NCBI GenBank assembly: GCA_947629175.1 | Contig: CANRCT010000014.1 | Coordinates: 1-64,000, forward strand | Source of the DNA: an uncultured Muribaculaceae bacterium | GTDB lineage: Bacteria; Bacteroidota; Bacteroidia; Bacteroidales; Muribaculaceae | Reading direction: 5' to 3' | DNA length: 64,000 bases | Shown here: positions 31,722-57,086 of the stretch, in pieces | Position numbering within the stretch: the stretch's first letter is position 1 | Layout: each line of letters begins with the position of its first letter | Translations under genes and position numbers: made by a program | The notes under the pieces: generated by a model | Database searches by the model: none | What the model was told of the DNA's origin: nothing | What the model saw: the letters and a program-made list of their open reading frames with translations, nothing else

Positions 31722-32852
31722 TCACATACCCGCTTCGCGCCTGAGCCATTCGGCCATGACAGGATCGGAGATCACAACCTGGCGGCTGTCGATCTCGATA
31801 AGTTCTTTCCTGATTAGCGCGCTCTTTACGGCAGTGACATTTGCCGACGACCCAAGATCATACTTCTCCATGATTTCCCGGGTAGTAAATCCGCTGTGTA
31901 CGCCATCGATGACAGCACGCATAAAATTCATCTGATAATTCGTGAGATTCTCGGTCTGCTTCTCAAACAGCGGAGTATTCTGGTCGAGGAGATCCTGATA
32001 AGCCGCATCAAAATCATGCTCTGCGGCACTATTGTCAGTGTGGATCCAGACCAGCCATGCCAACTGCTGCACATATGATGAATGGTTGTCGACCGCCTGA
32101 CAGACTTTGGCCGCCAATTCTTCCGAAATATGCTTTCCGGTGGCCTCAAAGCGTCCGCAAATATATTCCACCCAGTCATCGGTGCCTATTTTCTGCAGAT
32201 AAACCGCGTCGCCGAACTTATAAAAGGGAAGGCTCTTTTTTTCAAAAAGCTCGTTCATGAGATGCTTCTTGCTCCCGAAGAGACAGTAGGATGCCGACGA
32301 CTGCAGCTGCCACACCGTCCGCAGCCGCTTCTGAAATATCCTGGAATCCTGAAACTCGGCTATCTGCTGGAACTCGTCGATGCAGACTACGATATTGCAC
32401 CCCTTTTTCTTCGCGATCTTTTCAGGCAGCTGCAGAATCTCGTCTACATCGTCGCTTTTCGTGTTCACGTCAAAAGATATGGAAAAATCTGTCATCGGAT
32501 CAGCGCCCATAGAGATTTTCGGACTGATACGCGACAGAAACAGTCGGGCATTCTCAAGCCACTCTTCAAACCTCGAAGATGTCTGCTTAAGCACGGCGGC
32601 GGCAAATGCGTCATAAAATTCCCGATCGCTGCGACAGGCAAACACGTCAAGATATACTATTTTCAGCTCATCGGATTGAGCAAGCTGACATACCTTCCGC
32701 ACCAAGGAGGTTTTCCCCCAGCGACGAGGTGAGATCAACACAGTATTTATACCGTGCCTGAAATTCAGCAGCAGTCGCTCGGTCTCTTTTTTGCGGTCGG
32801 TAAAGTTGACTCCTGAAGTAGCCACTCCGAATATGAAGGGTTTTTTATCCAT
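31722..32852 (-). CDS. AAA ATPase of the archaeal-ATPase (PF01637-like) family
   Basis: A 376-residue stand-alone ATPase. Walker A is SPRRWGKTSLV and Walker B is VVCIDEFQQIA. The C-terminal 80 residues look like a winged helix (FTTREIMEKYDLGSSANVTAVKSAL). It is related to the gene at 14574-15725 (same length, same motifs) but clearly diverged. A canonical promoter overlaps an inverted repeat upstream, which suggests self-regulation through the winged helix. The biological role of the family is unknown. Composition is somewhat lower in G+C than that of the neighbouring operon. Confidence 0.82.
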   Translation of the reverse strand: MDKKPFIFGVATSGVNFTDRKKETERLLLNFRHGINTVLISPRRWGKTSLVRKVCQLAQSDELKIVYLDVFACRSDREFYDAFAAAVLKQTSSRFEEWLENARLFLSRISPKISMGADPMTDFSISFDVNTKSDDVDEILQLPEKIAKKKGCNIVVCIDEFQQIAEFQDSRIFQKRLRTVWQLQSSASYCLFGSKKHLMNELFEKKSLPFYKFGDAVYLQKIGTDDWVEYICGRFEATGKHISEELAAKVCQAVDNHSSYVQQLAWLVWIHTDNSAAEHDFDAAYQDLLDQNTPLFEKQTENLTNYQMNFMRAVIDGVHSGFTTREIMEKYDLGSSANVTAVKSALIRKELIEIDSRQVVISDPVMAEWLRREAGM

Positions 32853-32875: not shown

Positions 32876-32928
32876 CAAAGATAAGCAATAACTTTATTAG
32901 TAACAACATTGTTAGTAACAAAGTTATT
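32876..32928 (-). promoter_or_regulatory. Promoter and palindromic operator of the second AAA ATPase gene
   Basis: -7 TATCTTTG (complement of 32876-32883), 20 bases, -33 TTG (complement of 32904-32906). An inverted repeat AATAACTTT/AAAGTTATT (32887-32928) and two direct copies of TTAGTAACAA overlap the -33 region. Confidence 0.6.
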
Positions 32929-32998
32929 ACGTTTGTCTTGATTAACGACAGAATTAGCTGATATTTAGAGCAATAACCGCCACGGAATCCGACTGTCC

Positions 32999-33106
32999 CT
33001 GCGGCTCATCTACGAAGAGCCGTAGCGTATCCCATAGAGCGATCCCCACCAAGGCGCTGCTTCGCGCGCCATGGCGGGGTTATCGATAGTATCGAGGTCT
33101 ACGACC
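32999..33106 (-). repeat. Dispersed structured repeat, copy A
   Basis: Read on the minus strand: GGTCGTAGACC, a 14-base spacer, AACCCCGCCATGGCG, a short spacer, CGCCTTGGTGGGG, a spacer, then a GGCTC/GAGCC hairpin followed by GCAG. The same blocks occur in the same order at 55021-55124 on the plus strand. Part of the 332-base gap 32853-33184. Confidence 0.7.
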
Positions 33107-33140
33107 TCTCTGCTTCTGACTGCTCAGACGGATCAGACGT

Positions 33141-33175
33141 GTCGGACAAGTCCGACAAGTCCGACGTGCCCGACG
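33141..33175. repeat. Nine-base tandem repeat
   Basis: GTCGGACAA, GTCCGACAA, GTCCGACGT, GCCCGACGG in a row, just downstream of the DUF3298-like gene. The first two units form a perfect GTCGGAC/GTCCGAC inverted repeat. Confidence 0.6.
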
Positions 33176-33184
33176 GGCCGGGTG

Positions 33185-54918: not shown

Positions 54919-55008
54919 CAGGATCGGCTCGACTGCCGAAGACAGATGCTCCCCCGGGCCGAAGCGTGCAGCAGGATCCCCGGAGCGACTGCCGAAGAGG
55001 TATGCTCC
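54919..55008. repeat. Imperfect tandem repeat of about 55 bases
   Basis: CAGGATC, then GACTGCCGAAGA, then ATGCTCC occur in order at 54919-54952 and again at 54972-55008. It lies just upstream of copy B of the dispersed repeat, in the 369-base gap 54799-55167, which holds no gene. Confidence 0.55.
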
Positions 55009-55020
55009 ACAGGCGGGAGC

Positions 55021-55124
55021 GGTCGTAGACCGCATCACCTTTGTAAACCCCGCCATGGCGGGCGCAGCTCGCCTTGGTGGGGTGGAAGGACACCCAACAC
55101 GGCTTCTTCGTAGAAGAGCCGCAG
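55021..55124 (+). repeat. Dispersed structured repeat, copy B
   Basis: GGTCGTAGACC, spacer, AACCCCGCCATGGCG, spacer, CGCCTTGGTGGGG, spacer, then a GGCT...AGCC hairpin and GCAG. Same order as copy A at 32999-33106 (opposite strand). Spacers differ while the hairpin arms stay complementary. Confidence 0.7.
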
Positions 55125-55167
55125 GAAAAGTCACATTATTCACTTACACTCATATTATTCCATTATC

Positions 55168-55458
55168 ATGTATTTTCAGGGACTGATATTAGGGGCGGCG
55201 ACATTTCTGATCATAGGAGTGTTTCATCCGATCGTCATCAAAGCCCACTACCACTGGGGCACAGGCTGCTGGTGGGTGTTTCTCGTCGTGGGACTGATCT
55301 GTATCGGCGGCTCGCTCGCCGTGGCCGACCCATTCTGGTCGGCGCTGCTCGGCGTCACCGGCTTCTCGTCGCTATGGACCATCAAGGAGGTGTTCGAGCA
55401 GGAACAGCGCGTAGCCAAGGGATGGTTTCCGGCCAATCCCCGGCGCAAGCGCAGCTGA
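55168..55458 (+). CDS. DUF4491 family membrane protein
   Basis: A 96-residue membrane protein with three hydrophobic helices (about residues 3-22, 34-53 and 58-73). MYFQGLILGAATFLIIGVFHPIV (in parts) and the ending EQEQRVAKGWFPANPRRK are characteristic of DUF4491, a family of unknown function common in Bacteroidales and Clostridia. It is monocistronic, with an intrinsic terminator downstream. Confidence 0.85.
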   Translation: MYFQGLILGAATFLIIGVFHPIVIKAHYHWGTGCWWVFLVVGLICIGGSLAVADPFWSALLGVTGFSSLWTIKEVFEQEQRVAKGWFPANPRRKRS

Positions 55459-55504
55459 CTCCCATCAGGCGGCTGCTCTCACTTTTCCCACAGATATAAA
55501 TTAA

Positions 55505-55545
55505 GGCAGGCTAACCTCCCGGTCAGCCTGCCCGCACTATTTTTT
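55505..55545. terminator. Terminator between DUF4491 and the second susD
   Basis: Stem GGCAGGCT/AGCCTGCC with a 12-base loop (55505-55532), followed on the plus strand by a T-rich tract TATTTTTTAG. Confidence 0.8.
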
Positions 55546-55586
55546 AGTATGAAATATCACCGGTTTTACCCGGCAATGGGATATTG

Positions 55587-57086
55587 TCACTGAGGACGTG
55601 TATTCTGCCAGCCCTCGTTCTGGGTCACGCCGAAACCGGCGTTGATCTCATCGACAGGTATCGGCAGCAGGAGATCGCCAAGCTGCGCATTGCTGATGCC
55701 CCAGTCTATGTCGGGAGCACCGATGGCGTTCAGATTGGTAGTGATGTTCCAGCGGCGGAGATCCCAGAGGCGGTGGCCCTCCTGGAAGAGCTCGCGTGCG
55801 CGCTCATCGCGGATGAAGCTCATCAGACCTGCCTCGTCGGAGGGGAGATCGGCAGTCGACGTGATGTCGAGATTACGCTTTGCCACCACGAGGAGAGCCT
55901 GACGGGCAGCATCGAGATCCTTGTTGGGGCTGCGCAACTTGGCCTCGGCCTCGATCAGGAACATCTCCGGAGCGTTGATCAGATAGTTGGTGGCCTCGGC
56001 GCAGTTGCCGCTTGCGGGCACGCCGAACTTACCGCCGCCGAACCAAGGCACTGCGTCGCCGTAAGGCACGTTCTTCTTATGCTGCTGGTCGGTCCAGTAC
56101 CAGATAGACGTACGGATGTCGTTTTCGCCCATGAGGCTTACCAGATAGGGGCTCGGGCCGTAGCAGTAGGTAGTGAAGAGAGTGCCGCAGGAGTTGGCGC
56201 TCCAGTTGGTCTTCTCGTCGAGAGCGAGAGCCAGGAAGCTCTCTGTATTGGTGTTGTTGCCTGCATAGAGAGCCTTATAGGCATCGGGATCATAGGTAAG
56301 GGATGTGATGCCCTTGGCTGCGAGAGCCTCCGAAGCCGCGGTATATGCTTCGTCGAACTCCTCAAGCATCAGCTTCACGCGGGCCATGAGTCCGAGAGAA
56401 GAAGCCTTGCCGAAAGCGAAGAGCGAGCGGCGGTCGCCCACCTCGTTGAATCCGGCTATTGCCGCATTGAGGTCGGAAAGGATCTGCGCGTAGCAGTCGC
56501 CTACGCTCGAACGGCTTACCTGAGTGCCGGCCACGACAGGCTCGTTGACCACCACTACGCCGGTGCTCGACGAATAGTCCTGGCCGTTGACCTTCACCTG
56601 ATGGCCGAAGACGTTGGTCATAACGCTCATGGCATAGGCTCTGAGAGCGTGGGCCTCCGATTTGGCACGGATGAGAGTCTCCTTGTCATCGCCTGTAGCC
56701 GAAGGGATCTGCTGGTCGCAGGCCTGGATGATGCGGGCGGCGTTGTCCACCACCTTGTAGCCGTAGGACCAGATGTAGAGCATCGAGTATTCGGTATCGA
56801 GGTAGTTGAACTGATACATTGCGTTCTGGTGGCTGTTGGAGCCGTTCCAGTAGGTGATGTCCGATGCCAGGTCGGGAGTCATCGTGGCGAAGTTGCCGGC
56901 GAAATAATACTGGCTGAACCGGTAGTAGGTGCCGTTGAGGGCAAGCTCCACGCGGTTGGCGTTGTCGAGAGCGCCTTCCATATCGACGGCATCGTAGATG
57001 TCGGTGTCGAGGAAGCTGTCGCCGCAGGAGGTCATCGTCATGGCCACGGCGGCTACTCCGAGCGCCTTTACAAATATATTTTTCAT
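55587..57086 (-). CDS. susD: SusD/RagB-family surface lipoprotein
   Basis: A 499-residue lipoprotein (lipobox MTMTSC, cysteine 21) with SusD landmarks: NRVELALNGTYYRF near the N-terminus, KSEAHALRAYAMSVMTNVFG near residue 150, and a C-terminal FIRDERARELFQEGHRLWDLRRW (in parts). It follows susC by 28 bases. It is a short pair with no SusE/F-type gene or enzyme gene beside it, so the substrate is not indicated. It is unrelated in detail to the SusD at 36708-38327. Confidence 0.93.
   Translation of the reverse strand: MKNIFVKALGVAAVAMTMTSCGDSFLDTDIYDAVDMEGALDNANRVELALNGTYYRFSQYYFAGNFATMTPDLASDITYWNGSNSHQNAMYQFNYLDTEYSMLYIWSYGYKVVDNAARIIQACDQQIPSATGDDKETLIRAKSEAHALRAYAMSVMTNVFGHQVKVNGQDYSSSTGVVVVNEPVVAGTQVSRSSVGDCYAQILSDLNAAIAGFNEVGDRRSLFAFGKASSLGLMARVKLMLEEFDEAYTAASEALAAKGITSLTYDPDAYKALYAGNNTNTESFLALALDEKTNWSANSCGTLFTTYCYGPSPYLVSLMGENDIRTSIWYWTDQQHKKNVPYGDAVPWFGGGKFGVPASGNCAEATNYLINAPEMFLIEAEAKLRSPNKDLDAARQALLVVAKRNLDITSTADLPSDEAGLMSFIRDERARELFQEGHRLWDLRRWNITTNLNAIGAPDIDWGISNAQLGDLLLPIPVDEINAGFGVTQNEGWQNTRPQ

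Follow-up and report, generated by a model that had tools for sequence, protein, structure and literature searches.

Hairpins of the model IS200/IS605 elements are recognised as single-strand DNA. Canonical REPs are 20–40 bp long according to PMC3733652, and a length of 21–65 nt has also been given (PMC6006769). The protein TnpA_REP (RAYT) reads the tag and in certain systems also the loop (PMC8266576). Subclass 1.2 of TnpA_Y1, as defined by Quentin et al. (2018), comprises Bacteroidetes proteins of about 148 aa with a Y---Q--HH motif and a low copy number, and it is listed without REP and generally without IS200-type end structures (PMC6006769). The automatic repeat search in that study demanded a hairpin of the GT[AG]G type (PMC6006769) and would therefore miss the repeats described here. 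In a survey confined largely to open-access papers, we found nothing that described repeats next to subclass 1.2 genes or REPs from Muribaculaceae.

Architecture and copies of the repeat

The window, that is, the whole stretch of 64,000 nucleotides that was analysed, is contig C14 of a Paramuribaculum-like genome (G000) of 2,941,209 bases (2.94 Mb) on 79 contigs. An earlier note on this DNA had described five conserved blocks shared in opposite orientation by two gaps between genes, copies A and B, and all of them were found in the sequence. The block GGTCGTAGACC occurs in the window without mismatch solely at 33096–33106 (minus strand) and 55021–55031 (plus strand). The core CGCCATGGCG-N(2-22)-CGCC has two sites in the window, again copies A and B, for a chance expectation of 0.07 matches (two were reached in 1 of 100 shuffles), and no inverted pair found in the window is longer than that of the 52-nt arms 33059–33110 and 55017–55068, which are 77% complementary.

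The earlier note had recognised a single terminal hairpin. That hairpin is indeed present, but the folds give three per copy, with the other two formed by the first block and by the two central blocks. The element is about 110–118 bp long and has all three hairpins on one strand: H1 with the consensus NNGGTC-GNA-GACCNN; H2, CCCCGCCATGGCG...CGCCTTGGTGGGG, in which there are a conserved G.T pair and a T.T mismatch as well as a short upper stem; and H3 with the consensus GGC..TCTTC-GNA-GA.GAGCC. Copy A lies on the minus strand at 32997–33110 (104.1 bits with the covariance model R1, described below), its conserved edges extending a few bases beyond. Sequence and folds place its H1, GAGGTC-GTA-GACCTC, at 33094–33108 and its H3, CGGCTCTTC-GTA-GATGAGCCG with a T.T mismatch, at 33002–33022; its H2, CCCCGCCATGGCG...CGCCTTGGTGGGG with the upper loop C-GAA-G, was located at 33044–33079 by sequence, DNA fold and pattern match. 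Copy B lies on the plus strand at 55017–55126 (110.8 bits with R1), and sequence and folds place its H1, GCGGTC-GTA-GACCGC, at 55019–55033, H2 with the upper loop C-GCA-G at 55048–55082 (here also by pattern match) and H3, with a CTTC-GTA-GAAG top and a GGC/GCC base, at 55100–55121. Directly 5' of its H2 stands the tag GTAAA (55043–55047), a possible guide judging from the base counts given below.

The surroundings of the two copies have features of their own. Adjoining copy A are runs of short palindromes of the GTCGGAC/GTCCGAC type (33124–33176) and an ATPase-like ORF (31722–32852), which is preceded by an AT-rich inverted repeat (approximately 32880–32935). Just upstream of copy B, 54925–55013 holds two imperfect 33-bp tandem units, 79% alike, in the position where relatives have the transposase locus discussed below.

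Loops and tags were counted in 37 copies from three genomes. GNA loops were present in 33 of the 36 H1 hairpins found (17 GTA, 15 GGA, 1 GCA; the rest were 2 TGA and 1 TCC) and in all 37 of the H3 hairpins (29 GTA, 5 GGA, 2 GCA, 1 GAA). A GTWAA-like tag takes up the five bases 5' of H2 in most copies; position by position, G occurs in 35, T in 32, A/T in 33, A in 34 and A in 25 of the 37. In the same alignment the conserved stretch runs from approximately GGGA before H1 to approximately GCAGGGACAG after H3, and beyond these limits the copies are largely unrelated.

An alignment of 39 copies to the model has 1111 cells, of which 93.3% pair. The covariation that the earlier note had expected is present, with changes on both sides that keep the pairing at 10 of 29 pairs (52 such cells). 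The covariation score was as high in 0 of 500 shuffles, and of five measures of covariation four were reached by 0 of 500 shuffles and the fifth by 15 of 500. Five of the ten covarying pairs are from H1, five from H2 and none from H3, which has one pair left open in 21 of 38 sequences. Because the alignment was made to fit the structure, these counts lean towards it; covariation does not separate RNA from single-strand DNA. RNA folds of three copies are strong on the element strand (z −3.3 to −4.7). Since H1 and H3 resemble each other in several genomes, it was tempting to see them as the left-end and right-end hairpins of a miniature IS200-like unit. H1 and H3 differ in the window family, and we set this idea aside as speculation.

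A pattern search for the central core over the whole of G000 gave 8 exact matches, from which R1 was built. R1 returned 34 rows at E ≤ 1 in this genome. The further copies predicted from the window were found: 24 rows are full-length copies (E ≤ 2.7e-8), of which the 8 seeds match by construction and 16 do not, and the next row has E 0.026. Most of the remaining 10 rows, from E 0.026, overlap known copies on the opposite strand. According to our reading of the surrounding ORFs, the copies sit between genes. Sixteen of the 24 form 8 neighbour pairs less than 1 kb apart, with opposite orientation in 8 of 8; by our arithmetic random placement would give about 0.2 such pairs. Pair partners have a mean identity of 0.687 versus 0.725 for random pairings of the same 16 copies, and values as low as 0.687 were reached in 30 of 5000 random pairings. 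This low within-pair identity recalls the E. coli Y/Z mosaics (PMC6006769). Simple clustering into 2 to 5 groups did not resolve two repeat subtypes; of the two approaches, the comparison of identities within pairs was the informative one.

A role as regulator of one type of gene was considered and rejected, the ORFs next to the copies having, by our reading, no gene type in common. On contigs C7, C13 and C32, however, members of a duplicated lipoprotein family are found close to several copies. Between two inverted copies on C29 (32904–33528, locus L071) there are two small ORFs, which by eye we take to resemble a HigB/HigA toxin-antitoxin pair.

Some copies occupy places that are empty in relatives. 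Between the genes that we assigned from their sequences as metG, ansA and pyrG, G000 has approximately 1.2 kb with two copies, and such a stretch is absent from its nearest relatives, G005 and G012. The gap of copy A and the ATPase-like ORF are missing together in G005; G012 keeps the ORF, and its contig ends soon after. A clean insertion of a single copy with intact flanks was found at none of four sites compared with the nearest relatives (metG-ansA-pyrG, copy A, G005 C301 and valS), all of which have presence/absence differences or broken contigs.

Y1 transposase genes and their flanking repeats

At E ≤ 0.01, R1 matched 9 of 61 genomes searched, with 24 rows in G000, 11 in G005, 10 in G012, 15 in G030 and fewer in five others; outside Muribaculaceae it matched 0 of 24 genomes. 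The Pfam domain Y1_Tnp (PF01797) was detected in 39 of those 61 genomes. The earlier note had suggested looking for a linked RAYT-type transposase, and in both nearest relatives a Y1 (HUH) gene is indeed flanked by inverted copies of the element, one at C8:8488–8817 in G005 and one at C134:290–619 in G012. The upstream copy is on the same strand as the gene in both, and the protein is a Y1 (HUH) transposase of 147 aa. G005 has one Y1 gene and G012 two, versus 11 and 10 matches to R1.

The cognate transposase gene is missing from G000, as judged from PF01797 and a protein search of the whole genome. Its single Y1 gene (C5:97839–98276, within locus L097, C5:88000–98675) is 34% identical and stands beside a different repeat, a family with a GCCCC-GGA-GGGGC hairpin followed by TAACCCCGG. 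Pieces resembling this second, C5-type repeat were also seen between paired copies of the window type on C11, where clusters seem to mix the two families. No transposase gene or relic was found in the window, a tblastn search with the G012 protein giving chance matches alone (best E 2.0).

Copy B and the small gene downstream of it (55170–55457, plus strand, outside the element) provide the link between the window and the transposase locus. Window positions 55014–55682, which include both, are 77% identical to G012:C134:1073–1743 and 76% to G005:C8, and an orthologue of the small gene follows the transposase locus in G005 and G012. By synteny, copy B is orthologous to the innermost repeat of that locus. 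At this place G000 is without the transposase gene and its upstream neighbour is different. As the genome retains 24 copies of the repeat, the simplest reading is that G000 has lost the gene, although it may instead have been gained in the ancestor of G005 and G012. G030 appears to be a second orphan case, with no Y1 gene at E ≤ 0.001. Its 15 matches to R1 often form tight inverted doublets approximately 11 bp apart (loci L077, L078, L103, L104 and L111). Since G030 and G000 both are without the cognate gene, loss must be assumed twice.

The partner protein was compared with profiles, structures and relatives. NCBIfam IS200/IS605 gave 61.9 (G012 protein) and 62.4 bits, above the cut-off of 55; with the REP-associated tyrosine transposase profile NF047646 (cut-off 80) the G012 protein scored 24.6 bits and the G005 protein had no match. 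An AlphaFold2 model of the transposase (mean pLDDT 91.6) is closest to IS608 TnpA with left-end DNA (E 2.2e-8) and also matches 4er8, a REP-associated transposase (E 5e-5). The motif Y-x3-Q-x2-HH is present in 29 of 30 primary proteins, which came from the best 30 of 69 genomes with a match. A tree of 80 proteins, rough because of few columns and several long branches, places 73 rows of this kind in one group (99/94), with seven other Y1 rows apart. In motif, length and tree position the protein thus matches subclass 1.2 of TnpA_Y1, to which it would belong on sequence grounds.

The G012 protein has matches at E ≤ 1e-10 in 69 of 149 Muribaculaceae genomes, in 24 of 30 genera. One locus was examined in each of the best 30 of these 69 genomes, and both flanks were present in 29. 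To score inverted pairs, the 600 bases upstream were aligned locally with the 600 bases downstream in reverse complement. The score exceeded 40 at 25 and 22 at 27 of these 29 loci, and it was 40 or less at four (L120, L123, L124 and L133). Mismatched loci (n=280) gave a median of 14, a 95% point of 22 and a maximum of 40, and 150 random positions in the window gave a maximum of 29. The inverted arms usually begin approximately 20–70 bases from the start codon and 1–60 from the stop codon.

C-GNA-G hairpins, counted if they had at least 5 perfect pairs and lay within 250 bases of the gene, were present at 27 of the same 29 loci from the best 30 of 69 genomes, on both sides in 20. They numbered 86 on the element strand and 11 on the other, and shuffled sequences gave a mean of 0.22 and a maximum of 2 (100 shuffles). 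In the window outside copies A and B, C-GNA-G accounted for 0 of 78 such triloop hairpins, one of them being the complement. By eye, the flanking repeats of different genomes have a common layout and unrelated sequences. The flanking element of G127, a genome from a different genus, was matched 11 times across 7 contigs, with several of the matches in inverted pairs, and it is absent from three congeners.

Seven loci added by hand stand outside these counts (L080, L083, L097–L099, L101 and L102). At one, L083 of G035, no inverted pair spans the gene and repeats lie downstream instead. Among Y1 genes without the HH motif, C-GNA-G hairpins were found at 0 of 7 and an inverted pair above 22 at 0 of the 6 that had both flanks. 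Three HH genes of other families gave an inverted pair above 40 in one case and C-GNA-G hairpins in none.

A search of the phylum at E ≤ 1e-12 matched 119 of 296 genomes, and from the best 30 of the 119 we examined 29 loci, leaving out that of G000 itself. In this sample the score exceeded 40 at 10 loci and 22 at 18, and a C-GNA-G hairpin was present at 19; these hairpins numbered 29 on the element strand and 8 on the other, for a shuffle mean of 0.07. Three of six more distant loci scored above 40 (L203 154, L207 87 and L206 43). Distant homologues in MAGs labelled Gammaproteobacteria or Planctomycetota (L203 and L205–L208) in part have inverted flanks too, with scores from 37.5 to 154, and two of them have C-GNA-G hairpins. 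It is apparent that the layout is strong in Muribaculaceae and partial outside.

In the window family the conserved GTWAA tag before H2 may act as a guide. As a universal guide it was rejected, being supported in the window family but with moderate support in Muribaculaceae (41 on the element strand versus 24 opposite; shuffle mean 11.3, maximum 19) and without clear enrichment beyond (27 versus 14 opposite; shuffle mean 16.4, maximum 27).

Proposed mechanism and alternative readings

The element is probably a REP-like, non-autonomous single-strand-DNA module that co-evolves with subclass 1.2 transposases and has been orphaned in this genome; its mobility and cleavage are inferred. In the mechanism that we propose, the element strand would become single, for example as lagging-strand template, and the hairpins would fold. 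H1 and H3, as GNA mini-hairpins of great stability, could dock the protein or mark the ends, and the tyrosine of the enzyme would cut near a hairpin foot, for which the GTWAA tag before H2 and the GGGA-like ends are candidate signals. The cut module would then be joined elsewhere, and in this way copies would spread singly and as inverted pairs, every transposase lineage having its own repeat sequence. With the presumed loss of the cognate gene in G000, copies A and B would be orphans, and B would mark the former transposase locus. Recognition of a single strand and cutting by a tyrosine are extrapolated from studies of TnpA_REP together with the HUH fold. DNA mini-hairpins that have a GNA loop and two or more G-C pairs are described in PMC4686876 as extraordinarily stable (Tm of 78 C for GCGAAGC), a stability that, in a connection we draw ourselves, suits a single-strand DNA signal. 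Several observations weigh against this reading: no clean single-copy insertion turned up at the sites compared, the gene must have been lost twice, four loci of the family score 40 or less, and outside the family the signal is weaker and the tag not clearly enriched. The flanking pairs could partly be older repeats kept for another reason.

The earlier note had offered either a structured RNA or a REP/MITE-like mobile repeat. The REP-like half of that reading is supported, because in the relatives a Y1 gene lies between inverted copies and copy B stands at the orthologous place. The other half would make the element a dispersed small RNA, a leader or a bidirectional terminator, with the fold selected as RNA. 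It draws on the strong RNA folds and the covariation, though neither separates RNA from single-strand DNA, and on the G.T pair of H2, which stabilises one strand only. We nevertheless consider it improbable, because the inverted pairs lie by unrelated genes and the C-GNA-G hairpins track a DNA transposase, and because Rfam gave no match (none at gathering score in the window and none at E ≤ 1 in two further-copy loci of relatives). The copies also stand at different places in relatives, and both sides of Y1 genes carry repeats that are unrelated in sequence and have the same layout.

Another alternative is that the repeats are simply left and right ends of dead IS200/IS605 copies, as the NCBIfam IS200/IS605 score of the protein and its fold, similar to IS608 TnpA, might suggest. 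The numbers speak against such decayed ends, with 24 repeats and no cognate gene in G000 and, in G005 and G012, 11 and 10 matches to R1 for one and two Y1 genes. The flanks, moreover, are complete inverted three-hairpin modules and not distinct left and right ends on one strand, which makes this origin, in our judgment, improbable as well. The size, copy number and intergenic placement would also fit a MITE moved in trans by a DDE transposase. Of all the alternatives we give this one the slightest chance, as neither a terminal inverted repeat nor a flanking duplication is evident in the 37 aligned copies and repeats of unrelated sequence are linked to Y1 genes in many genera.

The best reading is therefore a variant of the REP/RAYT kind and not a canonical REP, since the element has no GT[AG]G foot tag and is approximately three times longer or more. 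The earlier note knew of no name for it, which is fair given its departure from known REPs. The findings suggest a hitch-hiking repeat of an undescribed type and a substrate for an enzyme group previously without one. We would put at about even chances the broader proposal that subclass 1.2 TnpA_Y1 proteins drive a separate REP-like system across Bacteroidota, and perhaps beyond, with arrays of GNA-capped mini-hairpins of DNA as substrates, recognised mainly through their shape. If so, each lineage could change the sequence of its stems and still preserve the fold. The turnover of sequence under a constant fold makes the family a natural experiment in shape recognition by HUH enzymes, and inverted multi-hairpin modules with C-GNA-G loops offer a signature for finding such repeats in gut Bacteroidales.

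Comparison with REP and IS200/IS605 systems

The element resembles the canonical REP, BIME and REPIN systems, such as the Y and Z REPs of E. coli, in its dispersed intergenic hairpin repeats, its inverted pairs and its slightly different subtypes, and the dispersed intergenic copies (24) and inverted pairs (8) of canonical REPs are both found in G000. As in REP and TnpA_REP (RAYT) systems, the gene is flanked by its own repeat family and orphan repeats are left after loss of the gene (PMC6006769). This trait of a REPtron, a Y1 gene flanked by the same repeat, was found in G005 and G012 and not in G000. The differences are equally clear. At approximately 112–118 bp with three hairpins, the element is about three times as long as a canonical REP with its short single hairpin, or more, if the 20–40 bp of PMC3733652 are taken as the measure. 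In canonical REPs a GT[AG]G tetranucleotide stands 0–2 nt 5' of a hairpin foot. This tag is absent here: among the 5 nt preceding each hairpin, GT[AG]G was seen at 1 of 36 H1, 0 of 37 H2 and 1 of 37 H3 hairpins. C-GNA-G loops also set the element apart from canonical REPs, and the Y-x3-NP motif of TnpA_REP is replaced in the partner protein by Y-x3-Q-x2-HH.

Subclass 2.6 (RAYT group 5) is similar in its occurrence in Bacteroidetes, its repeats without GT[AG]G and the copies elsewhere in the genome (PMC6006769). Compared by description, it differs in having YIH[QN]NP and 'atypical' or weaker structures, whereas the proteins studied here have Y-x3-Q-x2-HH and the repeats have strong GC-rich hairpins. 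With IS200/IS605 elements such as IS608 and ISDra2 the system shares the HUH Y1 fold and an NCBIfam IS200 score above the cut-off. In those elements a left and a right end enclose the gene, an arrangement at odds with 24 repeats and no cognate gene in G000; the present repeat spreads without carrying its gene, and the modules on either side of the gene are inverted, with three hairpins each.

Subclass 1.2 was described in 2018 without IS properties or REPs and with its substrate unknown (PMC6006769), whereas in our analysis inverted multi-hairpin repeats flank most of the genes examined in one family. The element is thus a concrete candidate substrate. If the proposal of GNA arrays read by shape is true, subclass 1.2 gains its missing substrate, and a third logic of recognition would stand beside those of the IS200 ends and the GT[AG]G REPs.
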